A DNA stretch of 64,000 nt from Ashinkailepas kermadecensis (lineage: Eukaryota; Arthropoda; Thecostraca; Neolepadidae): the NCBI GenBank assembly GCA_034440615.1, contig JAOTOM010004050.1, positions 1 to 64,000 on the forward strand, written 5' to 3'. Shown here one piece after another: positions 14,494 through 63,375 of this stretch (its first letter is position 1; the number at the start of each line of letters is the position of its first letter). Below the pieces are notes generated by a model, which did not search any database, had not been told where the DNA came from, and worked only from the letters and a program-made list of their open reading frames with translations. The translations under genes and the position numbers were made by a program.

Positions 14494-14539
14494 CTCCAGC
14501 GAGGGGCCTCACCAGTTTAGTTGCGACGCTGGCCGTGTC

Positions 14540-16035: not shown

Positions 16036-16094
16036 ACACGAGCCATTGAGGCGGCGCCGACATCAGCGCGCTGCGTGACACAATGACACAACAG

Positions 16095-17440: not shown

Positions 17441-17480
17441 TGGTCGGCCGGGCGGATGTGCTATGCTGATGTGTACCTAC

Positions 17481-21424: not shown

Positions 21425-21935
21425 TCGTCTGCACCGTCACCTGCGCTGTCACCTACACCGTCACCTACACCGTCACCCACACCGTCACCTACACCGTCAC
21501 CTACACCGTCACCTACACCGTCACCTACACCGTCACCTACACCGTCACCTACACCGTCACCTACACCGTCACCTACACCGTCACCTGCACCGTCACCTAC
21601 ACCGTCACCTGCACCGTCACCTACACCGTCACCTACACCGTCACCTACACCGTCACCTGCACCGTCACCTACACCGTCACCTACACTGTCACCTATACCG
21701 TCACCTACACCGTCACCTACACCGTCACCTGCGCCGTCACCTACACCGTCACCTACACCGTCACCTACACCGTCACCTACACAGTCACCTACACTGTCAC
21801 CTACACTGTCACCTATACCGTCACCTACACCGTCACCTGCACCGTCACCTACACCGTCACCTACACCGTCACCTACACCGTCACCTACACCGTCACCTGC
21901 ACCGTCACCTACACCGTCACCTGCGCCAGTTCCTC
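21425..21935. repeat. 12-bp minisatellite TACACCGTCACC, about 43 copies
   Basis: Nearly perfect copies of TACACCGTCACC with TGCACC, TGCGCC and TACACT/TATACC variants. Because 12 is divisible by 3, open frames spelling HRHL or YTVT repeats result; they are not genes. Confidence 0.98.
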
Positions 21936-34838: not shown

Positions 34839-34996
34839 GGGGACGAGTGGTCTAGGGGTAAGATGCTCGTCTCACAATCGAAGGATTGTGGGTTCGAGTC
34901 TCACCTGTCGCTACTCTTCGCCCGCGGCCAATCGGCGTGAGATTGGCGACGCTATATGGCTCAACGGTCGACGTGTCGTAAAACCAATAACCACCA
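34839..34996 (+). mobile_element. tRNA-derived SINE, copy 2
   Basis: The element starts GGGGACGAGTGGTCTAGGGG, with intact box-A-like and box-B-like (GGGTTCGAGTCTCACC) promoters for RNA polymerase III. The body includes ACGGTCGACGTGTCGTAAAA and it ends AACCAATAACCACCA. Flanks 34,825-34,838 (CCGTGTTGTAGTGA) and 34,997-35,010 (CCGTGTAGTAGTGA) match at 13 of 14 positions, a clear target-site duplication. It lies in the second intron of gene A. Confidence 0.93.
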
Positions 34997-45514: not shown

Positions 45515-45710
45515 CCTCCACCTACGGTAAGCAGCGTTCGTATGTCGGCAGCTCGGCCGGGTCGGCTGGTCAAGAGTCAGTCGTGGGTGTCCAGCAAGCC
45601 GCGTCTGCTCTCCAGGCTCCTCGCTGTGTTCAACTTCGTCCAGTGGAAGGCAAAAGTCGGACGCAACGTGGCAGTCCAGCCCGCCATCGCCGTCCAGGAC
45701 ATGTCCGACG
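45515..45710 (+). CDS. CNGB: CNG channel beta: cytosolic N-terminal exon
   Basis: The frame ends in ...VQDMSD at GACG|GTATGA in phase 1, and the next exon supplies AC to give D-ESDAD. The result, MSDDESD after a basic amphipathic stretch (RLLSRLLAVFNFVQWKAKVG), resembles the segment before S1 in animal CNGB proteins, where a Leu/Lys-rich helix often binds calmodulin and is followed by an acidic linker. Two starts are possible: acceptor ACACAG at 45,514 (phase 0, fits the end at 43,488 or 43,614), or GGCAG at 45,551 (phase 1). The upstream part of the protein is therefore unsettled. The exon is followed closely by a loose array. Confidence 0.7.
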
Positions 45711-45744
45711 GTATGACTACGTCCACACTGACCATCCATACGCG

Positions 45745-46030
45745 ACCATTGGCTATTGGTTCACTCGTATGCTCATGGCTGGCCGCTGGCTGCTGGTTAG
45801 CTATGCATAGCTGGTTACTGACTACTGGACACGCATAGCTATGTGCTGGTTACTGGCTACTGGTTAGCTATGACTAGCTAGTTACCGGCTACTCATCACT
45901 GGCTAGCTATACATAGCTGGTTGCTGGTTACTGGCTACTGGCTGTTGGCTCCTGGTTAGCCGCCCATGGATAGCTATACTAGTTGGCATGCTGGTTAGGT
46001 GGCCATGGATGGCTACTAGCTACTGCATAA
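45745..46030. repeat. Degenerate array of GCTATGCATAGCTGGTTACT type
   Basis: Loose repeats of GGTTAGCTAT, GCATAGCTGG and TACTGGCTACTGG start about 35 bp after the donor of the preceding exon. Units are 18-30 bp and irregular. Confidence 0.7.
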
Positions 46031-46255
46031 CCATCAGCTACCGATTTGTTTGACTTTATTTTGATTTTATTCCAGCCACCATTGTCGGATGGTACCTGTC
46101 ACCGACGAACCCGCTTTACTATTGTCACGTGTGCTCGCACATGGTGTGGTTGTTAAGCGAAACTCATCTAACCACATGACTTGAACAATCAAGCATAATG
46201 GAAGAAGGGAAATATAAATATAACTCGCAAAAGTTTCTCACTTATAACAGAGGGT

Positions 46256-46470
46256 GCAGAGGCCAAGGGGACCACTGCCCTCCCCTAGGAACCAGAAATA
46301 CGCTAGACCAAACGAGAGATTTTGAGATTTTCGCCATGCAAACCCAGCAATTATCGGCGCGCTTCGCAAGAGAGTGACGTCTTTCGCATAATTTTTGTTG
46401 TGTGTGTGTGGGGGGGGGGGGGGGGGGGGGGATCGGGTTCCCCTTAGGACATCCTGGCTGCACCCCTCAC
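46256..46470 (+). repeat. Dispersed roughly 200-bp repeat, copy 2, with (TG)n(G)n
   Basis: Homologous blocks AACCAGAAATACGCTAGACC, TTTTGAGATTTTCGCC, GGCGCGCTTCGC and CCTTAGGACATCCTGGCTGC, in the same order as at 24,464. A (TG)n tract and a run of about 20 G interrupt it at 46,395-46,430. Confidence 0.75.
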
Positions 46471-46479
46471 GGGATGTAT

Positions 46480-49400
46480 GTTGTGAAATACACTTCACAG
46501 CAATGAAAAATGGCGGTGGTTACGACGTAGCATAGGAGCAGCTCTTGATATTTAAAGTTCGTCGGTTCGGTATCCAATTATGTGTATACTATGTATATAC
46601 TAGTCATGTCTATGCTAGTCATGTATATAGAATGTACATACTAGTCATGTCTAATGACACTCACGCGAGCATATCGTACGGTAAAAGTGAAATTTAGCGA
46701 CCTGGGCTTGCAGCGGTAAAATAGTGAAGACTATACGAATGCCCTTTCGATTACACCGTATGCTTTGAAACACACAATATTTTGAACTCGGTCCATTTTT
46801 TAAGTTAACTCTTCACAGCTTTCGACGCCTTGTTTCGTTTACATTTATCAGAAACTGTTCGTCCTGTCCAGAGAGTGTCTTACCTCCTGATCAAACCATG
46901 GTTGAGACCACACAGCGCTGTGTGCGTGTGTACAAACGGCGGGCTGGGCATACACTTACCCATTCCTCGGCTTCCCTCCCCCCGACGCGATTGCATTCGA
47001 ACCACCCCTGATGCCGAGCTAAGGCGTTCAGTAGCTTCAAGTGAACACCCACGATGAACAACAACAATGCACGCTAATATAGAACAAATTGAACCTGGCA
47101 ACTTTTATACTGTACCACCTACGGTTCATTTTCATAGGAATGAAAACAAACACTCCAGAACCGTACCTACACAGCCTCACTTTGGCGAGAGACTCGGATT
47201 GGCTATGGCCACTACGTTGGCTGGACTAGCGGGTAGAACATAGCCAGACATTCTTCAAGGAACTGAGAATGAACCAACAGAGCTGTTTGCTCGGCGGTTT
47301 TCGGGACACCTCGAGTGGGATACACTTAGCTAGTTAAATAGTGCAACTTTAGCTATCTTCGGATTGGCAGGAAGATCGCGGGAAGCTAAGATAAGTGATC
47401 GCGGGAAGATAAGTGACAACGTGGTGTTCTACACCATCCAATTGCCTTGCCAAGGAACGCCTGAGCCCTGGGCAGCACGTGGCAGAACCTGCCGGAAGTG
47501 TAGGTGTGGCGGCTCTGACGTCGGTGGGGTGTGAGGTGTGGGGCGGTGTTGGTGCGGTGGTTTGTGGTGGTTTGTGTGCCGGATTTGTGTGGTAGCAACC
47601 TTAACTAAGCTGACTGGACTAACTAAGGACTGAACTCTCGTCTATGCTGGCAGTGTGCCAGTGTGTTGGTGTTGTGTAAGTTGGCTGTGTGGTGTTGTGC
47701 GGTGGAATGTTCGGGGTGTGTGAAAGATAATAATCCTTGCCAAACCCAACTTAACTTAACTGACTGGCCTAAACCAAGCTTAACTAATTAAGGGCTTGAT
47801 CTTCACTAAGATTGAACCTTAACACGGCTGAACCTGGGCTGACTCTAGTCTTAGACTGGGCTAAATATCTCCTTTTGCTGCTTGTGCCTATGTCGGTGGT
47901 GTGTTGTGTTGTGTTTCCCCGCTACCTCCACCACACATTCCCCCAACCCCAGCCGGCTTGGTGTTGTTTGAACTACCATCCCTAACACGAATTTATATGT
48001 TGTGCGAGGTCAAAGTTTTGGGAACACCATATAGGTAAGTGAGTGCCTCTAGCCAAATTAGAATGAATACGTTGTATTAGAAAATTAATGAGTATGTAAT
48101 TTGTCCGTGGTTTGAATTACTTGTTCCCGAGTTGGGCCTTTTTGGATACTAATAGTAGTATAATTTTGTGCAATGTACCGCACGAAATAGGTGCCTGTGT
48201 TTAGCCCCAAGCAGCTTCCGCTGGTCCTTAAAGCTACCTAACACACATTCATTCTCCCCATTCACTCACATTCGCTCGTCCCAATCACTCTCTCCTTATT
48301 AATTAATGAATTGTTTGGTCCCCAAATTTGGCTCCCCCCTCAGCGGTATACAAACACATATATTGACAGACCATTGCTCTATTTTTGAAGGTATGTTGGC
48401 TAAATATGTAAACCTTTCGCTGCCAATGATAGCTGGCCTCGCCATTCCTGGCAGCGTTCCTCGTCTGGATAAAGTCTTAACTGTTACGAGGGGGCTCATC
48501 GTACTGGCTCCGAGGGCTTATATAGGTGCTGGCTTTGACCGACCTATCTAACCTTAAGACAGTCGATGCCGCGCCGGGCCTTATTCGCCGTAGACGTGCG
48601 AACAGACCTGTGTGTCCACGGGTGGGCATGGGTCCCTACCACGTTGAGCACGTCCCTTGGCCGTCCATATAACCTAGCCGGCCCTACCCTTTCATCCCCG
48701 GGGCTTGAATAGCTGCCATTGAAATGAGTCTGGGCCGGTAATATTTGGAAGAAGGAAGAAGGCATGACAGAGAGATGGCACTCACATTTTGCTGGTGGTT
48801 CAGTGCGTATCTTCTACGGCTGGCCTCTTCGTCGTCTCGTCTTCTGGACTCATCCCGGGACTGCCCGTCCGTGTGTGCGAGACCGTCCTTCCTTCAGTCT
48901 GCTCGTTTTCTTGATTACCTCTTGCCCTGCCCCCTCTCGTTTCTGGCCACTCCCAGGACTTCGGAGTGATAGTTTAGTCTCTTCGTTGGTGGAGGGCATT
49001 TTTTTCATTTTCGCCTCCTTGGGCCGTGGGTGCCTTGATGCCGCCGGGGGCCTTCATGGCGTTCTGCTGGATTGGGGATTTCCACTGTGCTGCCGGGGGT
49101 CGCTGGTCTCACGGTCCGACGATCTTTCTCCTGTTGTTCTGCCCAGACGCGCATCTGGTGTTGTTCCAGATTATCTGGCTGCCGCCCTTGATCTGGATGC
49201 GTCCGCGACGGTCGGGTTCGGGTGGGTTTTATTCCTAACAAACAGGTCATGGAAAGGGGCGGGAGCTGGTGGTCGGGATCCGGCTCGACGTCTTGCCGCT
49301 TGCAGCGCTGTCGGGTAGGAATATATCGAACATTTCGTGCCGAAAGAATGTAAACCTCCAGGCGTCACATTCACTACCATACTTTGTCCAGTTCCCAACG

Positions 49401-50393
49401 TACCTAGGTCAGGCGACGTTTCGTAGAGCTGCACCACGGTTCTTCCGAAGAACTTTGCGAAGCAGATGTGTAAAAAAAAACTGCTAAAATAGTGGTTAAG
49501 ATGCACTGTGCTGGTGAACAGGCGTACGCTCCCTGTTTCATGAATTTGACAGCCTGCGGTTGTATCTAGTTCAGATCCAGCAATTACCCGAAGCTACACT
49601 ACTAACATTATCCAACTCACCGTGTCCGAAACCCATCGTGTCAGGAGCTATTAGGACACCATCAGCTAATGTTCAGTTTGAACTAGTTTTGGGCAGCAGG
49701 CTGGTCGATAACATGGAAGAACGCGTTCCTGTCGCTTCATGATCTGAATGTTTACAGTACACCTCAATCGCCATTTCAACAGCTTTTTGCAAATGTTAGG
49801 AATATTTATTCCGCTATGAGGAATATTCCGCTTCCATCTGTATGGCCAAGTGATTTGAATGAATCATGGAATTGCCCTGCAAAAAGCGCCATATCTTAGG
49901 ACATTTTTCTCAATTGGACAAAATATGGCACCGGGTGTGGTGCCTGCTCAGTGATTGTTGGTAGGTTCTGCCAGGAGACGCTCAGTTCTGGCCGGTCAAG
50001 ACAAATAGGTGCTGTGAAACATAGGAATATCAGACTTACATTCCTCCGATGCTACCGGCCCGAAATCAGCTCAAGTTTTTCTTGTAAGCTTGTCCGCTGA
50101 ACGTTTCCTGCTGGAAACTTTCCCCTGGAAAGCTTCGTTGAAAATCTTCTGGAAAGCTTCGTGGAAACTGCCAACTACTCGGCATTTATCGGTCAGAAGT
50201 TGAACAATAAACATAGTGTCAAAACAAGCTCACCATGCTGCGGAAAGAGAGCCGTTAGACTTAATTGTGCAAAGCTCCATGCGGTTTCACCTTGCAACAA
50301 TGATTCTGTTCTTCATCTGCTCGGACCGCGGCCAGGCGTTGGCCCTGTCCTAGCTGAGTTCTGGAACCGCCACTGACGGTACCTGCCACACAG
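46480..50393. other. Large CNG intron; one unassigned GC-rich open frame
   Basis: Most of this is unique, GT-rich or AT-rich sequence. At 48,764-49,318 a GC-rich segment has a 184-codon plus-strand frame (hydrophobic FSLLVFLITSCPAP) and opposing frames. No domain or splice border is recognised, and TTATATAGG lies upstream at about 48,518. It may be a mobile-element remnant. Nothing is seen in 49,500-50,390. Confidence 0.35.
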
Positions 50394-50582
50394 ACGAGAG
50401 TGACGCAGACCAGGACTGGACGCCGCCCACACTCAGTCACGTGCTCTACCACGACCCCGTTGACCCGAGCTGGGCACCGGCGCCGCTTCAGCACACCGAC
50501 CGGGGCGGCAGTGAGCCGCCGCCCCGCCGCCAACTGCACCGCCTGACCAGCCTGGCGTGGCCACAGTCGCTCGATCCGCAGA
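50394..50582 (+). CDS. CNGB: CNG channel beta: exon leading into S1
   Basis: The acceptor CTGCCACACAG ends at 50,393. Entered in phase 1, it reads ESDADQDWTPPTLSHVLYHD, then VDPSWAPAP, a Pro-rich region, and RLTSLAWPQSLDPQ, ending in phase 1 at CAGA|GTAAGT. The PQSLDP motif immediately before S1 is a landmark of CNGB subunits (PQSIDP in vertebrate CNGB1, from family knowledge). The Asp/Pro-rich part is the expected cytosolic linker. A short GTGTCAAGCG-type repeat follows the donor (50,611-50,690). Confidence 0.88.
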
Positions 50583-51093
50583 GTAAGTCGTAGCCTGCTG
50601 GCGGGTCAGGCCAGTGTCAAGCGCATCAGGAGTGTCAAGCGTGCCAACTGTGTCAGAAGTGTCGGGTGTTGACACGCTCGTCAGGTGACAGAGCCCGTGC
50701 GACACAGATCAACGGCATGGTTGGTTGGGGCTGTTCTTCAGGAGATTGACGCTGATCTACAATATCTCTTAGCATCGTCGACAAGCGTGACAATTCGTGC
50801 GCGCGGAGGCTGGTAGATCGCCAATAAGCACGCCAACAACAAAGGTGGAAGTCAAGAATGCTCTGTACTTGGATCGTGCGATTTGTAATATTTTGTTTTC
50901 CCGTGGAATAAGAAGTGAAGCACGCTTTTCTAAAGTAGCATGGTATTGCGGATTGGGTTGCATTTTTAAGATGTAATTTGCTTAGCATTTTCCTTTGCGG
51001 CGATCTCGAATATTTGTTGTTGACGGTGCTTCAAACCAGCACATGTTCGAACCGAACATCCTTCGAGCCTGCAGTCACGTCTGCCCTCCACAG

Positions 51094-51192
51094 GCAGGCT
51101 GTACATTAGCTGGACGTTGGTGGTGGTGCTAGTGTTCGTCTACAACTGCTGGATGGTGCCGTACCGAGCGTTTTTCCTGTACGGAAAGCAAG
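51094..51192 (+). CDS. CNGB: CNG channel beta: S1 exon
   Basis: The acceptor CTGCCCTCCACAG ends at 51,093. The frame gives S-RLYISWTLVVVLVFVYNCW then MVPYRAFFLYGKQ, one hydrophobic span (S1) followed by a basic loop. It ends in phase 1 at CAAG|GTCAGT; the next exon completes D. Position, length (99 nt) and residues such as the NCW pair match CNGB S1. Tandem GTGTCAACACT repeats start about 20 bp after the donor. Confidence 0.9.
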
Positions 51193-51214
51193 GTCAGTAG
51201 GTATGTGGCGCGCA

Positions 51215-51295
51215 GTGTCAACACTGTGTCGGTGTCAACACTATCGTTGTCAACACTATCGGTGTCAACACTGTGTCGGTGTCGGTGTGTCAACG
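51215..51295. repeat. About 18-bp GTGTCAACACT tandem repeat
   Basis: Four or five imperfect copies (GTGTCAACACTGTGTCGGT, or TATCGTT variants) just downstream of the S1 donor. Confidence 0.85.
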
Positions 51296-51355
51296 ACAAT
51301 AATCCTGGTTGCAGGCCGATCCTGACGTCGCTGGAGTCACGCAGTTCGGCCACGT

Positions 51356-51555
51356 TCTTCCACTAACCATCGCCGGCGCTCTCACACAGACCGCCGTCGG
51401 ACTTCCCGACCGGCCACTGCAGGATCACGTGGTGTCGGGCTCTCGGCCGCCCGTGTCTTCCACTGACCATCGCCGGCGCTCTCACACAGGCCGCCGTCAG
51501 ACTTCCCGACCGGCCACTGCAGGATCACGTGGTGTCGGGCTCTCGGCCGCCCGTG
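51356..51555. repeat. 100-bp duplication containing copies of the S2-exon acceptor region
   Basis: Two tandem copies of a 100-bp unit (starts at 51,356 and 51,456). Each includes GGCGCTCTCACACAG, then CCGTCAGACTTC. These closely resemble the real acceptor of the S2 exon (GGCGCTCTCACGCAG, then CCCTCAG|ACTTC at 54,546-54,576), 3 kb downstream. A further partial copy lies at 54,351-54,381. Confidence 0.82.
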
Positions 51556-52690
51556 TCCGGCGGCCATTCAGCCCTCTGGTGGCCGCTCCGCGAGCCGTGC
51601 GAGGCGAGGCAGGCGCGCACCCGGGGCCCTCGAAAGGGGGGTAAGAGTGCTGGCCGACACTGCAGGATTGGCGTCAGCAGCCAGCCAGAGCCGGCCTTCC
51701 CACAGGCCTTCCCAACGTTCGAAGTCTGAAGCCGAATCTTTTAGAGCTTACTCAAGAACTTTTTCGAATGTAAACATGAGCTTCTTGCACTGTGGGGAAC
51801 TTGGTTGAATATGGCAACGCCTAATCGGCTACCAATGCTATCCGGTTACCAGATGTTGCGCTACTCGTACGGACGGCATCAGCGTTACGAGTCCTAAGAC
51901 CACCGACCCATCTCAAGACCCATCCCAGTGCGTCATTGGTGCAAACCGGACAATGACTGTTCCAAAGCGAATCTGAGTGATTTTTATGTCCAACTTTTCG
52001 CAACATCATCGTGTTAACTCTGGGACTTACTCATATGACTGGCTGTTGGACATATTAGCTGCTAACGAGCTTGACCTGGTTAAACATTGTCACACGCGCT
52101 TTTTTACCTTTAGTCCGCATATATTTCTGACTCGCTTTCATCTTCATATATAGAAGTCGACCGCCCCCGATAACCATTCGTGCTATTTGTTTGGGTACGA
52201 TTGATTTAACCGCTTTTTATGATCACCGGATGCGCGCCGACTGATGTAGGGTGTTTGGATCAAAATTATCTCCTCAAATCAAATCAAATCAAATTATCTG
52301 TGGAATTATCTGGGAATAAAATTATCTCCGGTCTCGCCCTCGGCACGGTTTCCGTCCCAATCACTCGACGGAGACCACTCTTACTTCTATATTCGATCAT
52401 ATCTTATATGCCAAAGACCGTGGGGAAACATCGCTGCTTTGCTTTCTCGAACTTAGCGAGTGTTTCGATGTGATGGATCATTCGAAACTTTTAATCAGAC
52501 TGCGTGCCCTGGGTAGCGATATTCCGTGGTTTTCGGCCTACAAAATGATACTCAGAGTGTCAGCATCACCGACAGTCTGGGTAATGCAAAACTTTCCTCT
52601 AGGTTTCCCGACAGCAGTGATGTCTTTCAGGGATCAGCGCTGAGCCCCCTGATCCACTACATCTTGGCGAATGACTTCAGTCGGTTCGCT

Positions 52691-52834
52691 GATGACGCAG
52701 TGGTGGTCCAGTACGAGGATGACGCAATGGTGGTCCAGTACGAGGATGACGCAATGGTGGTCCAGTACGAGGATGACGCAGTGGTGGTCCAGTACGAGGA
52801 TGACTCAGTGGTGGTCCAGTACGAGGATGATACC
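52691..52834. repeat. 27-bp repeat of the reverse-transcriptase catalytic motif
   Basis: Five complete 27-bp units, in frame, encode DDAVVVQYE/DDAMVVQYE at 52,691, 52,718, 52,745, 52,772 and 52,799, followed by a divergent sixth (DDTK). The unit contains motif C of the polymerase. Confidence 0.95.
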
Positions 52835-53565
52835 AAAACTGTGGTACGCGGATGAAGATCTCGCCTTCAAAATACCGTATCGCGAATGAAAACGTCCTCG
52901 GCCTCTATTGATCTTTGGCTCAGGGCTAATGTCCTCAAAATTAGTGCAGATAGGTCTCAATTGATGTTTTTCGGTAGTTAACCAAATATTCGCAGAGTCC
53001 CCAACTTCATCGTCAAATTTGGTCATCATCGTCTCTCCCCTGTCTGAAAGCAAAATTTAATAATCAGTCGTTTCTTTGAGTCGGCTGGAATTTTCATTTC
53101 TCACTCATAACCTGTCGTTACTCCGGTATTTTGGCTGGTCTGTCACATCTGAGGAACTACCTGCCCCCCCCCCCCCCCACCCCCAGCGTCGTTATTACGC
53201 TTGCGAATGCGTTCGCTCGCTCGCAGGTCCTCTACGGCATCACAATTTATGACAACAGTGGTCGAACCAATCTTCCCCGGATCCAAGTTCTGAACTATTT
53301 AGCTAAATTCATTACTGGTCGCAAAAGCTTCATCACGTATGGGACCTGGTACGGAAACTCGACTGCCTATCCGCGCTTGATCTTGTGCAGTACAGCATAC
53401 CTGCACTGATGAACAATGTGCGGAGAACTGGCGAGACTGAGGAGCTTTTTCGCCAGCTTCGTACAGTTAGAGAGACCCACAGGAGGCCGACTAGACAGGA
53501 CGAGGATCTATTTGTGCCCCGGTCTAGAACGGAGATGGTGGAGCATCGCTTTATCTGCCGGACAG

Positions 53566-54100
53566 CAATGCAATGTAGCAGTGCAGCAACCTGCCACCAG
53601 ACCTGAAGCAGTGCAGTGCAGCACCCTGCCACCCGACCTGAAGCAGTGCAGTGCAGCACCCTGCCACCCGATCTGAAGCAGTGCAGTGCAGCACCCTGCC
53701 ACCCGACCTGAAGCAGTGCAGTGCAGCACCCTGCCACCCGACCTGAAGCAGTGCAGTGCAGCACCCTGCCACCCGATCTGAAGCAGTGCAGTGCAGCACC
53801 CTACCACCCGACCTGAAGCAGTGCAGTGCAGCACCCTGCCACCCGATCTGAAGCAGTGCAGTGCAGCACCCTGCCACGCGATCTGAAGCAGTGCAGTGCA
53901 GCACCCTGCCACCCGATCTGAAGCAGTGCAGTGCAGCACCCTACCACCAGATCTGAAGCAGTGCAGTGCAGCACCCTGCCACCCGATCTGAAGCAGTACA
54001 GTGCAGCACCCTGCCACCAGATCTGAAGCAGTGCAGTGCAGCACCCTGCCACCCGATCTGAAGCAGTGCAGTGCAGCACCCTGCCACCCGATCTGAAGAG
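53566..54100. repeat. 35-bp minisatellite within the reverse-transcriptase relic
   Basis: About 15 units join AGCACCCTGCCACCCGATCT and GAAGCAGTGCAGTGC. The founding sequence is the PPDLK region of the element's C terminus, which reappears intact after the array (GATCTGAAGAGGCTACCTGT). The unit is 35 bp, so the reading frame rotates. Minus-strand frames of 90-180 codons here are artefacts. Confidence 0.96.
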
Positions 54101-54381
54101 GCTACCTGTGCCGCAGTTTAAACACGCTTTGAGGAGCCATATGCCGCAGAGGCCACCGCGAGTGGGTGATGCACCATCTGTTTGCTGTCGGTGTGTGAGC
54201 TTAGGATGTGCTTCAGTGTGTTAACTTTGTACTGGTGACCCAATTTCTTTATTACCTTGTTTTATTTGTAATGACGAGGGCTGTAGCAGCCAGCAGCACA
54301 TCGTGAGTCTGCCTAATACAGGTATCCGCTTCTGTCTCTGTATCGCCCTATGACTTCCATTGGCCGTCACCGGCGCTCTCA

Positions 54382-54541
54382 GGGGACGAGTAGTCTAGGG
54401 GTAAGTTGCCCGTCTCACAATCGAAAGTCGTGGGTTCGAGTCTCACCTGCCGCTACTCTTCGCCCGCGACCAATCGGCGTGAGAGATTGGCGATGCTACA
54501 TGACTCAACGGTCGACGTGTCGTAAAACCAATAACCACAAC
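54382..54541 (+). mobile_element. tRNA-derived SINE, copy 3, perfect 14-bp target duplication
   Basis: The element begins GGGGACGAGTAGTCTAGGGG, has box-B-like GGGTTCGAGTCTCACC and body CAATCGGCGTGAGAGATTGG, and ends AACCAATAACCACAAC. Both flanks read CACCGGCGCTCTCA (54,368-54,381 and 54,542-54,555), a perfect target-site duplication. It inserted 30 bp upstream of the S2 exon acceptor, inside an acceptor-like duplication. The branch point/pyrimidine tract therefore now lies between SINE and exon. Confidence 0.96.
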
Positions 54542-54571
54542 CACCGGCGCTCTCACGCAGCTCGCCCTCAG

Positions 54572-54738
54572 ACTTCTATTGGCCGTGGCTGGCGCTCGAC
54601 TACCTGGGTGATCTGGTGAACGTGCTGGACGTGGCGGTGATGAAGCCGCGGCTGTCAGCCATCAGCGAGCTGGACGGCAGCTGGTACCGGTCACCACGTG
54701 ACACCAGGAGGCATTACTGGAGCACCACCATGTACCGG
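54572..54738 (+). CDS. CNGB: CNG channel beta: S2 exon
   Basis: The acceptor CTCGCCCTCAG ends at 54,571. With the G carried from the S1 exon, the frame reads D-FYWPWLALDYLGDLVNVLD, then VAVMKPRLSAISELDGSWYR, then SPRDTRRHYWSTTMYR. It ends in phase 0 at TACCGG|GTGAGG. It covers the S1-S2 loop, S2 (DYLGDLVNVLDVAV) and the S2-S3 linker, as in CNGB proteins where a DYLCDLIYxLD-like motif is conserved. The last 75 bases and the donor are tandemly repeated about twelve more times downstream; the first donor gives the expected protein. Confidence 0.92.
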
Positions 54739-55745
54739 GTGAGGGGGACGAGCTAGACGGCAGCTGGTACCGGTCACCACGTGACACCAGGAGGCACTAC
54801 TGGAGCACCACCATGTACCGGGTGAGGGGGACGAGCTGACTCAGCAGCTGGTACCGGTCACCACGTGACACCAGGAGGCACTACTGGAGCACCACCATGT
54901 ACCGGGTGAGGGGGACGAGCTGGACGGTAGCTGGTACCGGTCACCACGTGACACCAGGAGGCACTACTGGAGCACCACCATGTACCGGGTGAGGGGGACG
55001 AGCTGGACGGCAGCTGGTACCGGTCACCACGTGACACCAGGAGGCACTACTGGAGCACCACCATGTACCGGGTGAGGGGGACGAGCTGGACGGCAGCTGG
55101 TACCGGTCACCACGTGACACCAGGAGGCACTACTGGAGCACCACGATGTCCCGGGTGAGAGGGACGAGCTGGACGGCAGCTGGTACCGGTCACTACGTGA
55201 CACCAGGAGGCACTACTGGAGCACCACCATGTACCGGGTGAGGGAGACGAGCTGACTCAGCAGCTGATACCGGTCACCACGTGACACCAGGAGGCACTAC
55301 TGGAGCACCACCATGTACCGGGTGAGGGGGACGAGCTGACTCAGCAGCTGGTACCGGTCACCACGTGACACCAGGAGGCACTACTGGAGCACCACCATGT
55401 ACCGGGTGAGGGGGACGAGCTGGACGGCAGCTGGTACCGGTCACCACGTGACATCAGGAGGCACTACTGGAGCACCACCATGTACCGGGTGAGGGGACTA
55501 GCTGGACGGCAGCTGGTACCAGTCACCACGTGACACCAAGAGGCACTACTGGAGCACCACCATGTACCGGGTGAGGGGGACTAGCTGGACGGCAGCTGGT
55601 ACCGGTCACCACGTGACACCAGGAGGCACTACTGGAGCACCACCATGTACCGGGTGAGGGGGACGAGTTGGACGGCAGCTGGTACCGGTCACCACGTGAC
55701 ACCAGGAGACACTACTGGAGCACCACCATGTACCGGGTGAGGATG
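54664..55745. repeat. 83-bp array of the S2 exon end plus its splice donor, 13 copies
   Basis: The unit begins GAGCTGGACGGCAGCTGGTA, runs through GGCACTACTGGAGCACCACC and ends ATGTACCGGGTGAGGGGGAC. It is exactly the last 75 nt of the S2 exon plus about 8 nt of intron. CATGTACCGG recurs every 83 bp from 54,729. Nearly all copies keep the GTGAGG donor; one reads ATGTCCCGG. A GACTCAG variant occurs in several units. The first copy is the real exon end. Confidence 0.97.
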
Positions 55746-55749
55746 ACTC

Positions 55750-56160
55750 TCCTGACGGCTCGCTGCCCCGTCTGTCTGACGTCAGCACCTGCGTTCAGTC
55801 CGAGTTAGAATTATCATCACTGTGTGATACTGGCAGACTGACACCTGATCCCTGCAAGTGTGAAATGGCAGATGAACATGGTAGCATGGTAGGCGAAGCA
55901 ATCCAGAGAGAAGAATGACGAAACCAGGACTCGCCACTAAATCCATGATCTTGTGGAATTAGACGTGACTCTGGTGGTGTGGATTAAACAACACCTAAAA
56001 TGCATTATCTCTCTGTGGATTGGTCGATTTTCTTGGAGTGGGGGTAGAGCCGCGTCAACTACATGGCCATTTAGTGCCCATTATCTCTCTATGAACCTTC
56101 AGTATCCACAGAAGAGTTCATAACAGCCACAGTACGTGGAGGGCATGTATCGTGAAGTAA
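55750..56160. other. Intron, nothing further seen
   Basis: Unique sequence with no exon-like frame between the 83-bp array and a (GT)n tract. Confidence 0.5.
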
Positions 56161-56164
56161 ATAA

Positions 56165-56201
56165 TAGAGTGATGTGTGTGTTTGTGTGTATGTGTGTGTG
56201 A

Positions 56202-56247
<46 letters not shown>

Positions 56248-56292
56248 ATGTGTGTGTGTGTGTGTGTGTGCATGTGTGTATGTGTGTCTGTA
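56165..56292. repeat. (GT)n microsatellite
   Basis: Long GT dinucleotide tract with scattered CG and AT interruptions. Confidence 0.96.
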
Positions 56293-56387
56293 TCATTGTA
56301 TTCACGAATACTTCCGCGCAGGTGACTTAATATTCGAATCGTAGCGAATGCAGTTCTACAAATTGTTGCACCTGTAGCTAGTGTTGC

Positions 56388-56583
56388 AGCCAGGATTTTC
56401 CTAAGGGGAGGGGGGAGCGGGACCAAAAATGTACTGAAGGCGGGACGGATTTTGGCGCGCTCTTCGCGCGAAACAACTTAGAGTTTTGCATGGTGAAAAT
56501 ATCTAAATTTCTTCCTTGATCCAGTGTATTTTTGGTTGCTAGGAGTGGGTGGTGAAGGGCTGCCCCCTGGCTGCGCCTCTGCC
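56388..56583 (-). repeat. Dispersed roughly 200-bp repeat, copy 3 (minus)
   Basis: Reverse complement shows CAACCAAAAATACACTGGAT, TTTCACCATGCAAAAC, GCGCGAAGAGCGCGCC and CCTTAGGAAAATCCTGGCTG, the same order as copies at 24,464 and 46,256. It ends 50 bp before the S3 exon acceptor. Confidence 0.78.
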
Positions 56584-56635
56584 TGTAGCCTGTAGTTGTA
56601 CCCATAAACATTTTACATTCCCATGCTGTTTTCAG

Positions 56636-56722
56636 TTGGACACACTCGCTGTGCTGCCTCTGGATCTTCTGTACATTGCCTTCGGCTCCAACTCACTGTT
56701 TCGAGCGAACAGAATGCTTAAA
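56636..56722 (+). CDS. CNGB: CNG channel beta: S3/S4 exon
   Basis: The strong acceptor CATGCTGTTTTCAG ends at 56,635. The frame enters in phase 0 and reads LDTLAVLPLDLLYIAFGSNS, then LFRANRMLK, ending in phase 0 at AAA|GTGAGT. LPLDLLY is the S3 hallmark of CNG channels (LLPLDxLY) and LFRANRMLK begins the positively charged S4. Its 87 nt equal 29 codons. It is one of the few exons here without an array at either border. Confidence 0.93.
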
Positions 56723-57009
56723 GTGAGTACATCCCTCGTTATCTGTTTAGCCGAACAAGACCAATTATTGACCGCGAGAGCATTTGCCAAGCAAACAAGC
56801 TATTGCCTTTTCCATGGTCCGTGTCCACCACCCACGCGGAAGTAGATAGGCAGGATAAGCTTGTTTGAGATTACGTGTTCGAAAAAAATATCCCGAGTGG
56901 TAAATATCGAGAACCTCCTTCAAGTTTTGCTTTGGATGAGATGTAACCATGTGAATTCTCAATGATTAAGTTTGTGATAGCTCTATGCGGATCAGCACAC
57001 CATTATCGC

Positions 57010-57346
57010 ACCAGCGTTGCCCGCCTCCCGTTCATTGAGCCCACACCTACTGGGTGTTCTTCAGACCACCGGGACCCCTACCGTGCACCAGCGTTACCAG
57101 CCTCCCGGTCGCCAGACACACACCTACTGGGAGTTCTTCAGACCACTGGGACCCCTACCGTGCACCAGCATTATCAGCCTCCCCTTCGCCAGGTCCACAC
57201 CTACTGGAAGTTCTTCAGACCACCGGGACCCCTATCGTGCACCAGCATTACCAGCCTCCCCTTTGCCAAGTCCACACCTACTGAAAGTTCTTCAGACCAC
57301 TGGGACCCCTACCGTGCACCAGCATTACCCGCCTCCCGTTCGCCAG
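57010..57346. repeat. 77-bp array of the S4-S5 exon acceptor and exon start, 4 decoys
   Basis: CACCTACTGG recurs at 57,044, 57,121, 57,198 and 57,275, and in the real exon at 57,352, a constant 77-bp period. The unit joins CCTCCCCTTCGCCAG (acceptor), CACACCTACTGGAAGTTCTT (exon start) and CAGACCACCGGGACCCCTAC. Two of the four decoys keep the CAG; one has AAG and the oldest has lost it. Confidence 0.95.
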
Positions 57347-57534
57347 GTGCACACCTACTGGAAGTTCTTCGATCGGATGGCGGCCTTGGTGGCGTACCCC
57401 AACGCCATCCGCGTGATGCGCACTCTCTTCTACATGCTCTTCTTCATCCACGTCAACAGCTGTGCCTATTACGTGGCCAGCTTGCTGCAGGGATTCGGCA
57501 TCAACGGCTGGGTCTACGACAATGTCGGCAACGC
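57347..57534 (+). CDS. CNGB: CNG channel beta: S4-S5 exon and outer pore
   Basis: The acceptor CCGTTCGCCAG ends at 57,346. In phase 0 it reads VHTYWKFFDRMAALVAYPNA, then IRVMRTLFYMLFFIHVNSCA, then YYVASLLQGFGINGWVYDNV. It ends in phase 2 at AACGC|GTGAGT. It contains the post-S4 region, S5 (RTLFYMLFFIHVNSCAYY, with the HxNSCxYY signature of CNG channels) and the extracellular turret ending WVYDNVGN, matching WVYDGVGN in CNGB1. The upstream array repeats its acceptor and first 20-odd bases; an 18-bp array begins about 115 bp after the donor. Confidence 0.94.
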
Positions 57535-57649
57535 GTGAGTCGGCGGAGCGGCAAGGGTCCAGGGACAAGTGGTGCCACCACACGGAGACCGAGGAAGAGG
57601 CGCGGTTCTAGGAACAGTGACGAGTGGTGCCACCTAACCGAAACTGTCA

Positions 57650-58440
57650 GTCGCGTGCAGCCGGACCGTCAGTAACGGCCGGACCGTCAGTAACGCCGGC
57701 GGGACCGTCAGTAACGGCCGGACCGTCAGTAACGGCCGGACCGTCAGCAACGGCCTGACCGTCAGTAGCGGCCGGACCGCCAGTGCGGCCGGACCGTCAG
57801 TAACGGCCGGCCGTGGACCGTGTAACGGCCGGCGGGACCGTCAGTAACGGCGGGACCGTCGTAACGGCCGGACCGTCGTGGCCGGCGGGACCGTGTAACG
57901 GCCGGACCGTCAGTAACGGCCGGACCGTCAGTAACGGCCGGGCCGCCAGTAACGGCCGGACCGTCAGTGGCCGGCGGGACCGTCAGTAACGGCGGGACCG
58001 TCAGTAACGGCGGGACCGTCAGTAACGGCCGGACCGTCAGTAACGGCCGGACCGTCAGTAACGGCCGGACCGTCAGTAACGGCCGGACCGTCAGTAACGG
58101 CCGGACCGTCAGTAACGGCCGGACCGTCAGTAACGGCCGGACCGTCAGTAACGGCCGGACCGCCAGTAACGGCCGGACCGTCAGTAACGGCGGGACCGTC
58201 AGTAACGGCGGGACCGTCAGTAACGGCGGGACCGTCAGTAACGGCGGGACCGTCAGTAACGGCGGGACCGTCAGTAACGGCCGGACCGTCAGTAACGGCC
58301 GGACCGTCAGTGGCCGGCGGGACCGTCAGTAACGGCGGGACCGTCAGTGGCCGGCGGGACCGTCAGTAACGGCCGGACCGTCAGTAACGGCCGGACCGTC
58401 AGTAACGGCCGGACCGTCAGTAGCGACCTACGGGACCGTC
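57650..58440. repeat. 18-bp minisatellite GACCGTCAGTAACGGCCG, about 42 copies
   Basis: GC-rich units with a 15-bp variant (GACCGTCAGTAACGG) and truncated forms in the first 300 bp. The right half is more homogeneous than the left. A 121-codon frame of S-N-G-R-T-V repeats is an artefact of the period. Confidence 0.97.
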
Positions 58441-58444
58441 AGTG

Positions 58445-59113
58445 GCAGACGCAGACAATTATTCCACTTTTTCGGTGACTCCGTAAAAAATCATATTCGT
58501 ATTCATATTAAACAGGAAGTGTAAGTCCTGCAATTATTTAACCTTCATGATGGGCTTAGTGTCATATTCAGTGGATATATTCAGGCAGGTCTGGTTTTTA
58601 ATGTTCTTCGAAAATTGGAAGAAAAGTAGGTAGGTTTATCCCACGCTGCATGCGCATGTTGATAGAAACCCTACCGAGTGCATGCTGAACTGAACCTACC
58701 GGGATGTGTATCTGAGATATTTGTCTTTATTAGACTGGCTGTAGCTAAGAATCCCATCTTGCTCTGCCTGGCCGTCGTGTCCCATTTCCCCTTGGTGCTA
58801 ATGACTGCTCAGTGCATGGATTACACGAGGCCACCAAGGCAGCTGGGAATACTTCATGTAATTTCAGCGACGTCATTTGGAGATGTTGTGTTCTACTTTC
58901 CTGAAGTGCACATTTCACTGGAGCTTCTCAGCAAGTGTAATTGGTCTCATAATTGACATAGGTATTCTTCATTGGTTACTGCAGCGATTGCACAGTATGT
59001 TAGTATGATAACTATTACATGTTCTGTACCGAGTAATATCAGTTGATGACCAGATTATTTAGGTAGCTAATAATAGTTGATATTGGACACCTTATTCAAC
59101 CAACAAGGTAGCA

Positions 59114-59115
<2 letters not shown>
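58445..59115. other. Intron, no exon seen
   Basis: AT-rich sequence. A 92-codon frame at 58,678-58,956 has hydrophobic stretches, but neither splice borders nor phase fit the CNG gene. Confidence 0.45.
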
Positions 59116-59118
<3 letters not shown>

Positions 59119-59184
<66 letters not shown>

Positions 59185-59195
59185 ATATATATATT
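59119..59195. repeat. (TA)n microsatellite
   Basis: About 35 TA repeats with one CTC interruption near the right end. Confidence 0.98.
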
Positions 59196-59361
59196 CGTGT
59201 TCGCCATACTGTGCCCAATGGGTGCCCAGCCATAGGCCCAGTGACTCCGGCACTGTGCCTGGTGTCCACTGTACCGCGCTGCGTGTCTTCCACCAAGAGG
59301 CCCTGTGCCCTGTGCCCTGTGCCCCGTGCCCTGTGCTCGGCGCTCATTGCCCAGTCCACAG

Positions 59362-59503
59362 CTACGCGCGCTGCGTGTTCTTCGCCACCAAGACGGCCAT
59401 GTCAGTGGGTCGGAACCCGAAGCCGACAAACGTGATCGAGTACGTGCTGATGACGATCAGCTGGCTACTCGGCGTGTTCGTGTTCGCCGTACTGCTGGGC
59501 CAG
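59362..59503 (+). CDS. CNGB: CNG channel beta: pore and S6 exon
   Basis: The acceptor GCCCAGTCCACAG ends at 59,361. The first base completes Ala from the S5 exon. It then reads [20 protein letters not shown], then [20 protein letters not shown], then FAVLLGQ, ending in phase 0 at GGCCAG|GTGGGC. This is the pore helix, selectivity filter and S6. The filter SVGRNPKP lacks the glutamate of CNGA channels (TxGETPPP) and resembles the NPKP version of TAX-2-like beta subunits, so the protein probably works as a modulatory partner of an alpha subunit. The last 41 nt and the donor are repeated about 24 times downstream. Confidence 0.95.
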
Positions 59504-61085
59504 GTGGGCGTCGCACGGTTGGCGGGTGGCTGTTGGGCGTGTTCGTGTTCGCTGTACTGCTGGGCCAGGTGGGCTTCGCACGGTTGGCGGGTGGCTACTC
59601 GGCGTGTTCGTGTTCGCCGTACTGCTGGGCCAGGTGGGTGTCGCACGGTTGGCGGGTGGCTGTTGGGCGTGTTCGTGTTCGCCGTACTGCTGGGCCAGGT
59701 GGGCGTCGCACGGTTGGCGGGTGGCTGTTGGGCGTGTTCGTGTTCGCCGTACTGCTGGGCCAGGTGGGCGTCGCACGGTTGGCGGGTGGCTGTTGGGCGT
59801 GTTCGTGTTCGCTGTACTGCTGGGCCAGGTGGGCGTCGCACGGTTGGCGGGTGGCTGTTGGGCGTGTTCGTGTTTACCCTACTGCTGGGCCAGGTGGGCG
59901 TCGCACGGTTGGCGGGTGGCTACTCGGCGTGTTCGTGTTCGCCGTACTGCTGGGCCAGGTGGGCGTCGCACGGTTGGCAGGTGGCTACTCGGAGTGTTCG
60001 TGTTCGCCGTACTGCTGGGCCAGGTGGGCGTCGCACGGTTGGCGGGTGGCTGTTGGGCGTGTTCGTGTTCGCCGTACTGCTGGGCCAGGTGGGCTTCGCA
60101 CGGTTGGCGGGTGGCTGTTGGGCGTGTTCGTGTTCGCCGTACTGCTGGGCCAGGTGGGCTTCGCACGGTTGGCGGGTGGCTGTTGGGCGTGTTCGTGTTC
60201 GCCGTACTGCTGGGCCAGGTGGGCTTCGCACGGTTGGCGGGTGGCTGTTGGGCGTGTTCGTGTTCGCCGTACTGCTGGGCCAGGTGGGCGTCGCACGGTT
60301 GGCGGGTGGCTGTTGGGCGTGTTCGTGTTCGCCGTACTGCTGGGCCAGGTGGGCGTCGCACGGTTGGCGGGTGGCTGTTGGGCGTGTTCGTGTTCGCCAT
60401 GCTGCTGGGCCAGGTGGGCTTCGCACGGTTGGCGGGTGGCTGTTGGGCGTGTTCGTGTTCGCCGTACTGCTGGGCCAGGTGGGCTTCGCACGGTTGGCGG
60501 GTGGCTGTTGGGCGTGTTCGTGTTCGCCGTACTGCTGGGCCAGGTGGGCTTCGCACGGTTGGCGGGTGGCTGTTGGGCGTGTTCGTGTTCGCCGTACTGC
60601 TGGGCCAGGTGGGCTTCGCACGGTTGGCGGGTGGCTGTTGGGCGTGTTCGTGTTCGCCGTACTGCTGGGCCAGGTGGGCTTCGCACGGTTGGCGGGTGGC
60701 TGTTGGGCGTGTTCGTGTTCGCCGTACTGCTGGGCCAGGTGGGCTTCGCACGGTTGGCGGGTGGCTGTTGGGCGTGTTCGTGTTCGCCGTACTGCTGGGC
60801 CAGGTGGGCTTCGCACGGTTGGCGGGTGGCTGTTGGGCGTGTTCGTGTTCGCCATGCTGCTGGGCCAGGTGGGCGTCGCACGGTTCGTAGGTGGCTACTG
60901 GGCGTGTTCGTGTTCGCCATGCTGCTGGGCCAGGTGGGCGTCGCACGGTTCGTAGGTGGCTACTGGGCGTGTTCGTGTTCGCCATGCTGCTGGGCCAGGT
61001 GGGCTTCGCACGGTTGGCCTGGTGGCTGTTGGGCGTGCTCGTGTTCGCCATGCTGCTGGGCCAGGTGGGCTTCGCACGGTTGGCG
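59463..61085. repeat. 65-bp array of the S6 exon end plus its splice donor, about 25 copies
   Basis: The unit is TGGCTACTCGGCGTGTTCGT, then GTTCGCCGTACTGCTGGGCC, then AG|GTGGGCGTCGCACGGTTGG. It therefore comprises the last 41 nt of the S6 exon plus 24 nt of intron. Practically every copy preserves CCAG|GTGGGC. Variants (TGTTGGGC/TACTCGGC, GCGTC/GCTTC, CCGTA/CCATG) form blocks: GCTTC dominates the middle, CCATG the right end. Long frames of 450-610 codons on both strands are by-products of the 65-bp period. Confidence 0.98.
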
Positions 61086-61089
61086 GGGG

Positions 61090-61825
61090 CCGTACGATTC
61101 ACACGCGGCATGCGCTCACCGCATATCGTTGCATTTAATGTGAGTGATAGGAACTGCACATCACACACAGCAAGGCAGTCATAGCTTAGATGGTGTGACA
61201 ATTTCGTCACTTCAATTGAGGTAACAGAAAGTCTGATGGAGTCATTCAAGATGTCATTCATGGTGGTGGTCTTTCGGCGCGGTCTTGTACTCGAAATGAA
61301 CTTTGTTCTCGGATAGGTCGCCGTCTTACACAAGGAGTCGCTCATATATAATACCTACCAATTCAGGTCGTCCGATACAGTGCATCTGACTCTCGTCAGG
61401 TTCATGTGTCACCGGACTTTCAAGTCCTTGTTGTGACACACGTACTACGTATTTTTTTCACATGTATTTCACGTTCAATGGATGCCTTGGCCGGACAATC
61501 CATACATTTGAAAACTTTCCATCAACTATGCTAATCAAAATAGCTATTTCATTCCCACTTTCCGGCATTCCAAAAACACAACAATAGCATAACAATAGGT
61601 GCGAACTAGCTCATCATTCCTGATCTTTCCCGGCACAAATGTTGCAATAAATACATGAAGTAATCCAAGTAATGATTGTTATGAAAATCGGTTGTTCACG
61701 AATCGAACTGCGGATTTGTTGGTTATCAGTTCATCGACATACTTTCCGTGATAACGTATCACTTGCCGTCGTCGACTCCACGTCGTCCATGTTGTCATGC
61801 CAACACAGTCATTTGTTGTTGGCAG
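61090..61825. other. Intron, no exon seen
   Basis: AT-rich unique sequence between the 65-bp array and the C-linker exon. Polypyrimidine-rich only close to the acceptor. Confidence 0.5.
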
Positions 61826-61950
61826 ATCCACGACATTGTGGCCATGGCAACAAAGTCGCAGACGGATTTTCGTGAGACGCTGGACAACGTGATGCGCCTA
61901 CTGCAGAACAAGGACATCCCGCCCGACCTCCAGAGTCGGATCAAGCTATG
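61826..61950 (+). CDS. CNGB: CNG channel beta: C-linker exon (first part)
   Basis: The acceptor TTTGTTGTTGGCAG ends at 61,825. In phase 0 it reads IHDIVAMATKSQTDFRETLD, then NVMRLLQNKDIPPDLQSRIK, L, the A' and B' helices of the C-linker that couples nucleotide binding to gating. GQ-IHDIVA across the junction matches GQIRDIVA-type S6/linker transitions. The most likely end is CTATG|GTTAAC in phase 2, so the next exon should complete Trp and continue with a YTWxxQ-like motif. Read-through instead gives LTHTRQGHSS and a stop at 62,009, which does not fit the family. No exon with the missing motif was found before 63,194. Confidence 0.9.
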
Positions 61951-62034
61951 GTTAACCCACACTAGACAAGGGCACAGCTCTCCGAGTATGTGCACTGGCT
62001 TCATTGGATAATCAGCGCTATTTGCCCCCGACAC

Positions 62035-62545
62035 AACACATGATGATCAGCACCACCCGTCACCGTCACAACACGTGACGATCAGCACCACCTGTCATCC
62101 GTCACAACACGTGACGATCAGCACCACCCGTCATCCGTCACAACACGTGACGATCAGCACCTCCCGTCCCCTACAGCACGTGACGATCAGCACCATCTGT
62201 CATCCGTCACAACACGTGACGATCAGCACCACCAGTCATCCGTCACATCACGTGACGATCAGCACCACGTCATCCGTCACAACACGTGACGATCAGCACC
62301 ACCTGTCATCCGTCACAACACGTGACGATCAGCACCTCCCGTCCTCCGTCACAACACGTGACGATCAGCACCACCTGTCATCCGTCACAGCACGTGACGA
62401 TCAGCACCACCCGTCATCCGTCACAACACGTGACGATCAGCACCACCCGTCCTCCGTCACAACACGTGACGATCAGCACCACCAGTCATCCGTCACAACA
62501 CGTGACGATCAGCACCACCAGTCATCCGTCACAACACCCCGCTGT
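62035..62545. repeat. 36-bp minisatellite, about 14 copies
   Basis: Units combine CACAACACGTGACGATCAGC with ACCACCCGTCATCCGT, with length variants. Each unit contains a CACGTGACG E-box/CRE-like core. It lies where a C-linker exon is expected. Confidence 0.96.
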
Positions 62546-62690
62546 GTTTATTTGCGACGCCCGAAGAAATTCTTAGGGTATCGATGCGATGTTTGGGGGC
62601 CCGGCGAAATTGTTGGGAGACCATCACCTCTCGGGGGCATTTGCTCCCGTTGTCCCTCTTTGGTACGCCACTGCGTCCATCTCACTTGTT
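62546..62690 (-). repeat. Fragment of the GC-rich array family
   Basis: GCGATGTTTGGGGGCCCGGC and GGGGGCATTTGCTCCCGTTG, then TTTGGTACGCCACTGCG. This is the minus-strand form of the CAGTGGCGTACC end motif at 39,600, fused to the end of the 36-bp array. Confidence 0.65.
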
Positions 62691-62918
62691 TCAAGCTTGA
62701 TCATATTCCTCCTGCGGTCTATGTTGAGTGCACATATTTTTAAGCATTTCTAAGTGAGTCGTGTGTTTCCCCTGTAATATTTTCACCGCTTGTCAACTGT
62801 AACCATGTGTGCAAATATAATTTTGGTTGACATGACAACAGCCTTACCAACATCGCAGAATCCCAATCGATTTAAAATCAGTTCGCATTAGCCCTGTTTC
62901 GGTATTAGCTGTATTTCG

Positions 62919-63083
62919 GCGTGGTTGGTTGGTTATTGGTTTTCGCACGTCGACCGTTGAGTCATATAGCGTCGCCAATCTCTCCACCGATTGGTCGCGG
63001 GCGAAGAATAGCGACAGGTGAGACTCGAACCCACAATCTTTCGATTGTGAGACGAGCATCTTACCCCTAGACCACTCGTCCCC
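62919..63083 (-). mobile_element. tRNA-derived SINE, copy 4 (minus)
   Basis: The reverse complement starts GGGGACGAGTGGTCTAGGGG, with GGGTTCGAGTCTCACCTGTC, CAATCGGTGG, ACGGTCGACGTG and an (AACC)n tail. TGTATTTCG flanks both ends (62,910-62,918 and 63,084-63,092), a 9-bp target duplication. It lies about 110 bp upstream of the CNBD exon. Confidence 0.93.
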
Positions 63084-63193
63084 TGTATTTCGCGTTGCAT
63101 GACCGCCGACCCGACCAGCCGTGCTCGAAATGGGCCTAGGAAAACCAACTAAAAAAACAATTCTAAATATTTCCGTATTGCTTTTGCCGACAG

Positions 63194-63375
63194 TCGAGCT
63201 GGAGGCGCTGGCGTCACTACCGCTGAAGCTGCGCACAGACTTGGCGATCTCGGTGCACTACAGCACGCTGGTGCAGGTGAAGCTGTTCCGCGGCTGTGAC
63301 GTCACCTTCCTGCGGGACGCCGTGCTCCTGCTGCAGCCTGTCGTCTTCCTGCCCGGCGACTACGTCTTTAGAAAG
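63194..63375 (+). CDS. CNGB: CNG channel beta: C-linker end and first part of the CNBD
   Basis: The acceptor TTGCTTTTGCCGACAG ends at 63,193. In phase 1 it reads ELEALASLPLKLRTDLAISV, then HYSTLVQVKLFRGCDVTFLR, then DAVLLLQPVVFLPGDYVFRK. It ends in phase 0 at AAAG|GTGGCG. LPLKLRTDLAISVH is the D'/E' linker; KLFRGCD to FLPGDYV is the A helix and first beta strands of the cyclic-nucleotide-binding domain. The phosphate-binding cassette and C helix would be in later exons beyond the window. The donor is imperfect but fits the usual K-G junction. The phase-2 end of the previous exon does not match this phase-1 start, so at least one exon is missing. Confidence 0.9.

Follow-up and report, generated by a model that had tools for sequence, protein, structure and literature searches.

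Mirage-like minisatellites at splice junctions of a channel gene in a repeat-rich barnacle genome

Background

Tandem arrays with units spanning exon-intron boundaries were described in amphioxus under the name of mirages (PMC3087553, PMC3902484). According to these papers, the units are 10-160 bp long and occur at boundaries of both kinds, splicing is undisturbed, and copy number is unstable. The genes concerned are Adh3, the globin genes BflGb6 and BflGb9, TnC and PGBD5. The element called 'Mirage' in PMC7960049 is unrelated. In human genes that lie in segmental duplications, exon-intron boundaries also harbour internal tandem repeats (PMC2812944). Finally, intron gain via tandem duplication of AGGT-containing sequence was considered in the Rogers model (as cited in PMC3087553) and for the potato RdRp gene (PMC4974935). 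An earlier note on the barnacle locus analysed here had stated that no named phenomenon fits arrays built from splice-site DNA; the mirages and the human boundary repeats contradict this statement.

The barnacle arrays resemble amphioxus mirages in several respects. Minisatellite-like units of varying length span the exon-intron boundary, both donors and acceptors (5' and 3' boundaries) are involved, and the splice signals AG or GT are present in many units. The differences are the phylum, the size of the junction arrays (units of about 32-120 bp, at most 27.6 copies), and the fact that the measured background of minisatellites explains the rate at which junctions are covered. Observations on splicing and on copy-number instability come from the amphioxus reports, whereas the barnacle arrays are known from sequence alone. 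With the human repeats the arrays have in common minisatellite expansion at exon-intron borders. However, the human repeats are described together with novel introns, alternative transcripts and young paralogs, whereas a protein search of the whole assembly found neither a second copy nor a second allele of the barnacle gene. As in intron gain by AGGT duplication, sequence with splice signals is duplicated, but the barnacle arrays sit at the edges of long introns. The amphioxus pattern is hereby shown in a crustacean, one whose minisatellite load is high.

Repetitive sequence was reported to constitute 3.5% of the Capitulum mitella genome (PMC8416341), and low-complexity and simple repeats about 5% in Sacculina (PMC9582164); both values were obtained by other methods and are not directly comparable with the load given below. 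In Daphnia pulex, introns are reported to have fewer repeats with units longer than 8 bp than other regions do (PMC3152781), whereas in the barnacle minisatellites form about one fifth of the sequence around exons. No earlier report of junction arrays in this phylum was found, the titles and opening lines of abstracts of barnacle papers being silent on the subject.

Results and discussion

The CNG beta gene

The window (64,000 nucleotides) forms the start of a 215-kb contig (C3553) from the Ashinkailepas kermadecensis assembly (908 Mb, 4,689 contigs). Coordinates are those of the window, and the exons, arrays and inserted elements in and around the gene are given on the forward (+) strand unless marked otherwise.

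The gene at 50.4-63.4 kb encodes a beta subunit of the cyclic nucleotide-gated channel (CNGB), matching over S1 to the C-linker. The solved structure closest to its product is 7rh9_B (CNGB1; E 6.9e-78, residues 2-340), whereas the best CNGA match is weaker (4e-60). The Pfam domain Ion_trans is present (E 2.2e-19). A partial CNGB3-like protein of Amphibalanus amphitrite shows 73% identity with 66% of the query covered. For comparison, the same genome has a CNG alpha-like open frame, for which the best 120 of 2,080 hits include proteins of Pollicipes pollicipes (best match 86% identical) and Amphibalanus (84%). The nearest proteins thus come from barnacles, and an amphioxus origin of the window was rejected. 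A diverged relative of the CNG beta gene resides on contig C4689; its best exon is 60% identical.

Eight exons of the gene were scored. Exon E1 (N-terminal to S1; 50380..50582, the 5' limit being approximate) was delineated from sequence only, with the translation ending in LDPQ and the donor CGCAGA|GTAAGT, and was scored at the donor alone. It is followed by E2 (S1; 51094..51192, 87% to query 1-38), E3 (S2; 54572..54738, 93% match, with site scoring and copy dissection), E4 (S3-S4; 56636..56722, from translation, assembly match and site scoring), E5 (S5; 57347..57534, 95% match, with copy dissection), E6 (pore and S6; 59362..59503, 94% match), E7 (C-linker; 61826..61985, 93% match) and E8 (start of the cyclic-nucleotide-binding region; 63194..63375, 98% match).

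Three arrays containing splice junctions

Arrays were called by Tandem Repeats Finder (TRF) and then dissected copy by copy. Three of the 15 scored junctions of the CNG beta gene lie inside tandem arrays, and in all three the unit contains the splice site together with bases of both exon coding sequence and intron. The periods of 83, 77 and 65 bp given in the earlier note for junction-containing units were confirmed at the S2 donor, the S5 acceptor (its S4-S5 acceptor) and the S6 donor, respectively. Of the four borders that it had named, these three stand, and the fourth, the S2 acceptor, has an older, partial repeat of about 100 bp. Its observation that most exons have an array within about 120 bp also holds, for six of the eight scored exons (E2, E3 and E5-E8) and 8 of 15 junctions, some of the arrays being small.

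The S2 donor array (54666..55742) consists of 13.0 copies of an 83-bp unit (95% match by TRF) formed by 73 coding and 10 intron bases, with the donor TACCGG|GTGAGG. The GT is retained in all 12 further copies. The S6 donor array (59471..61087) has 24.9 copies of a 65-bp unit (96% match by TRF), in which 33 bases are coding, 32 are intronic and the donor is CAG|GTGGGC, and again the GT is retained in all further copies (24/24). The S5 acceptor array (57008..57370) has 4.7 copies of a 77-bp unit (88% match by TRF) with 24 coding bases. Its final copy is the real site TTCGCCAG|GTGCACACC, and the AG is retained in two of the four further copies.

In all three arrays the real site is the copy adjacent to the exon, that is, the first donor or the last acceptor, and this copy is probably the one that is spliced. 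When the exon copy was compared with the other copies by dissection, without a formal test, it had one private base in the S2 array, differed in the S5 array and did not differ in the S6 array.

One possibility is that the arrays function in splicing or channel diversity, the repeated donors serving as splicing enhancers or creating in-frame variants at S6. Indeed, splice sites are retained in most of the copies found, and frame 0 continued from the S6 exon is open for 530 codons. However, the copies of the donor arrays are 95-96% alike by TRF, and thus the retained sites may reflect merely recent expansion. Moreover, 83, 77 and 65 are not multiples of three, and reading through the first S2 donor leads to a stop at the sixth codon. 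We regard a function of this kind as extremely unlikely.

Two open reading frames, at 59081-60955 and 59245-61143 (624 and 632 residues), run through the 65-bp array. They are probably a by-product of the stop-poor, GC-rich unit.

Position of arrays relative to junctions in the window

Minisatellites (period of at least 10 bp) occupy 26.3% of the window (1-45 kb, 25.1%; 45-64 kb, 29.0%), and about 25% of window points fall inside them. A junction was considered spanned if at least 10 bp of one array lay on each side of it, and the 15 junctions were shifted together along the window to obtain the null distribution. In this test the junction positions were 1-2 bp off at 8 of the 15 sites; the exact positions are the exon coordinates given above. 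The observed three spanned junctions compare with a shift mean of 3.72 (P = 0.66). Junctions lying in an array or at most 120 bp from it also are at expectation (8 against 6.27, P = 0.34). The arrays themselves exceed chance, but their position relative to the junctions does not. The local process suggested in the earlier note, repeatedly building arrays from splice-site DNA, has no support here, as junctions are no likelier to be spanned than random points of the window.

Exons across the genome

Other exons were collected in searches with three families: the channel protein, the myosin head and the CCT chaperonin. There were at least 141 matches outside the window (11 channel, 78 myosin and 52 CCT), with myosin scoring covering 65 of 195 first-look candidates. 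From these, 119 were taken, leaving out 18 myosin and four CCT matches, and 117 were counted, two being without full sequence. The counted sample comprises 117 exons on 35 contigs, in 79 segments totalling 207,593 bases. Exon edges are the edges of profile matches, defined by sequence, and the flanks may contain unrecognised exons. Unlisted matches within flanks were counted as non-exon, which slightly lowers the background.

In this sample, 2.2% of the bases in exons and 21.1% of those outside belong to arrays. Inside exons the coverage rises towards the edge, from 0.8% at 60-90 bp through 1.6% and 3.2% to 7.7% in the last 15 bp (234 edges). Outside, it continues to rise, being 10.0% in the first 15 bp, then 12.9%, 16.6% and 18.0% (60-120 bp), and is level at 18-20% between 120 and 1500 bp from the edge. 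On the 35 contigs of the sample there is no peak of coverage at the junctions (234 edges of 117 exons). On the contrary, edges are spanned less often than points 300 bp outside (15/233 against 41/225; Fisher P = 1.7e-4). At least one array is present in 38 of 41 other loci, and from 0 to 93% of the 1.5-kb flanks is array.

The acceptor score was a stringent one; 28 acceptors and 70 donors, out of 117 each, passed, and therefore match edges were used as well. Among the 98 junctions with scored sites, eight, on seven contigs, are spanned. Junction arrays in other genes include a myosin donor (39 bp, 27.6 copies) and a CCT donor (68 bp, 9.2 copies). The spanned rate in the CNG beta gene, 3/15, is higher than the 15/233 of the sample (Fisher P = 0.084), and a local excess in this gene may exist.

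Eleven junction arrays were dissected, three from the CNG beta gene and eight from other genes, six at donors and five at acceptors. In all eleven the copies beyond the real site extend into the intron, although this order is partly built in, as the exons had been found as intact matches. The non-exon copies found retain GT in 74 of 77 cases and AG in 30 of 35; these counts are biased upwards, as a copy had to resemble the real site to be recognised (at most nine mismatches in 28) and decayed copies are under-counted.

At 100-250 bp from the 234 edges of the sample, there is more array sequence before acceptors than after donors. At 150 bp an array is present in 30/116 cases on the acceptor side and 14/115 on the donor side (unadjusted P = 0.011), whereas at 400 bp the difference has P = 0.23. 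On the acceptor side the count drops to 17/108 at 550 bp.

Contigs C4393 and C4673 (loci L046, L048, L050-L052 and L057) contain three successive copies each of the same myosin-head segment (model positions approximately 376-436). This is as expected for the mutually exclusive exons of muscle myosin.

Possible assembly errors

Copy numbers of tandem arrays are often wrong in assemblies, and long-read errors might have produced false or inflated arrays. Indeed, one of the amphioxus mirages was aberrantly assembled in the draft genome (PMC3087553). On the other hand, the copies in the barnacle arrays bear distinct point and length variants, and arrays are found in nearly all sampled loci. Further, contigs C4646 and C3901 (L093 with L124, L064 with L125) are near-identical over a CCT gene, with 99.8% identity over 1,201 bases at one exon. 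At another exon both carry an acceptor array of 40 bp and 7.3 copies (289 bp), with no change in copy number; one unit of the array differs by a cluster of changes, and the intron past the exon differs by many small indels. C3901 starts at the edge of this acceptor repeat. The two contigs may represent different haplotypes, or else the same assembly path in overlapping pieces. Their agreement disfavours random assembly error at the CCT array. Some copy numbers may be off, but the arrays are unlikely to be non-existent, and an assembly artefact is hardly credible as an explanation.

Origin of the repeat units

The 150 arrays analysed have a median period of 34 bp and a median of 4.65 copies. 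Two units were searched against the assembly, very common words being skipped. The 83-bp unit of the S2 donor array has 13 matches, all of them within this array, and the matches of an unrelated 39-bp unit are likewise confined to its own array. A unit common to another array was observed for 20 of the 150 arrays, forming 14 pairs, each within one contig. As the searched units are single-locus and the sharing pairs do not leave their contigs, single-copy DNA of the locality seems to be the source of the arrays. Dispersed satellite families were rejected: among the 150 arrays no unit is common to different contigs, and the two searched units matched at home only. Hairpin-driven expansion was also rejected, as the units fold no more strongly than GC-matched non-array DNA (116 units, P = 0.39).

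Most of the words resembling donor sites that were tried are at expectation in the 150 units: CAGGT occurs in 21 (20.9 expected), AGGT in 38 (40.9) and GTGAG in 13 (13.2), and the same holds for GTAAG and CAGGTG. GGTGAG is somewhat above expectation (9 against 5.1 +/- 2.4, the maximum of 30 draws being 10). A local process acting at splice junctions, such as slippage, break repair or R-loop damage, might favour the birth of arrays there. Three clean junction arrays in one gene, those in the myosin and CCT genes, the elevated spanned rate of the CNG beta gene and the GGTGAG count could be explained in this way. However, the spanned junctions are not in excess over shifted ones, the 234 edges show no peak and are in arrays less often than points 300 bp away, and most donor-like words are not enriched. 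On these grounds junction targeting was rejected, and we consider preferential seeding at junctions very improbable.

Of the 150 units, 42 contain the word GTCAC (GTGAC on the other strand), whereas draws of non-array DNA with matched GC give 18.9 +/- 4.3. When related arrays are removed, it is present in 38 of 138; in this reduced set it heads the 5-mers of the gene sample but takes only the eleventh place in the 35 arrays of the window. Since the scores of the 5-mers are over-dispersed (sd 1.5) and replication in the window is weak, GTCAC is retained only as a candidate seed or hotspot word. It is possible, though rather unlikely, that an unusually strong germline process, perhaps aided by a GTCAC-type word, keeps converting single-copy DNA into minisatellites until they form about one fifth of non-exon sequence. 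If so, approximately one junction in 12-16 would have a row of duplicate splice sites as a by-product. Such rows would be a standing stock for new introns and would test the choice of the spliceosome among identical sites.

A proposed model: minisatellite birth and selection in exons

Most probably, minisatellites are born uniformly, damage to exons is selected against, and the junction arrays are the spill-over of a repeat-rich genome. A genome-wide process would turn unique local DNA into minisatellites almost anywhere. Firstly, a stretch of about 10-150 bp would be duplicated; secondly, the copy number would grow by slippage or unequal exchange. The mutational step would be slippage or break repair. 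The duplicated stretch would sometimes happen to cover a splice junction. Such an array could be tolerated solely if it grows into the intron, so that a functional site, first among the donors or last among the acceptors, is still provided by the outermost copy, the one bordering the exon. Arrays disrupting the interior of an exon, growing into it or replacing the working copy would be purged.

A combination of rampant expansion with selection against insertions in exons was the other suggestion of the earlier note. It agrees with the gradient of coverage and with the order of copies seen in the eleven arrays, the latter with the reservation made above. We infer that selection is the cause of the decrease in coverage from introns to exons. 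Two observations do not fit neatly. The spanned rate in the CNG beta gene is higher than in the sample, and the acceptor-side excess near exons is not predicted by a uniform process with exon selection.

Mirages need no junction-specific mechanism provided that the background rate of minisatellites is high enough. The feature that stands out is the load itself, about one fifth of the sampled non-exon bases. Rows in which 13-27 near-identical donors follow one another provide a natural experiment in the choice of splice sites and in the gain of introns through duplication. In such genomes, these rows may also make gene finders miss or misplace exons.

Other repeats and elements of the window

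The repeat related to the S2 acceptor region is represented by two 100-bp copies (51356..51555, 97% alike) located 3 kb upstream of the exon. Two families derived from these copies, labelled D4/D5, recur close to E3: a 36-nt family at 54343-54378 and 54562-54597 (69-83% to the reference copy) and a 40-nt family (83%) at 54537-54576. The 100-bp copies have 36-40 nt in common with 54343-54378 and with the real S2 acceptor region. These may be the remains of an old array since split by inserted elements. Between the copies there is a degraded element resembling reverse transcriptase (52517..53560, limits approximate), the resemblance being that of the peptide, read by eye, with its FADD-like motif. 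A 27-bp array called by TRF (52691-52830) lies at the FADD-like motif of this remnant.

A tRNA-like (SINE-like) insertion, read by eye, is located just 5' of E3 (54378..54530, limits approximate). It resembles the tRNA-Val-like stretch at 63009-63083, and neither ARAGORN nor Rfam made a call for the copy at 54378-54530. Stretches similar to tRNA-Val are found at 34839-34914 (+), 63009-63083 (-) and about 54378-54455 (+; by eye alone), and a comparable one was seen by eye in the sampled loci L093/L124. They probably are the heads of a tRNA-derived SINE.

Introns of the gene contain further arrays called by TRF: a 35-bp array of 14.9 copies (53578..54098), an 18-bp array of 41.8 copies about 125 bp 3' of E5 (57660..58422), and a 36-bp array of 14.3 copies 42 bp 3' of E7 (62028..62537). 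Large arrays also occur upstream of the channel exons, within 4940-7112, 14534-17442, 21432-21922 and 32624-33571. These upstream arrays have periods of 21 bp (104 copies), 35 bp (43 copies), 39 bp (35 copies), 12 bp (41 copies) and 38 bp (25 copies).
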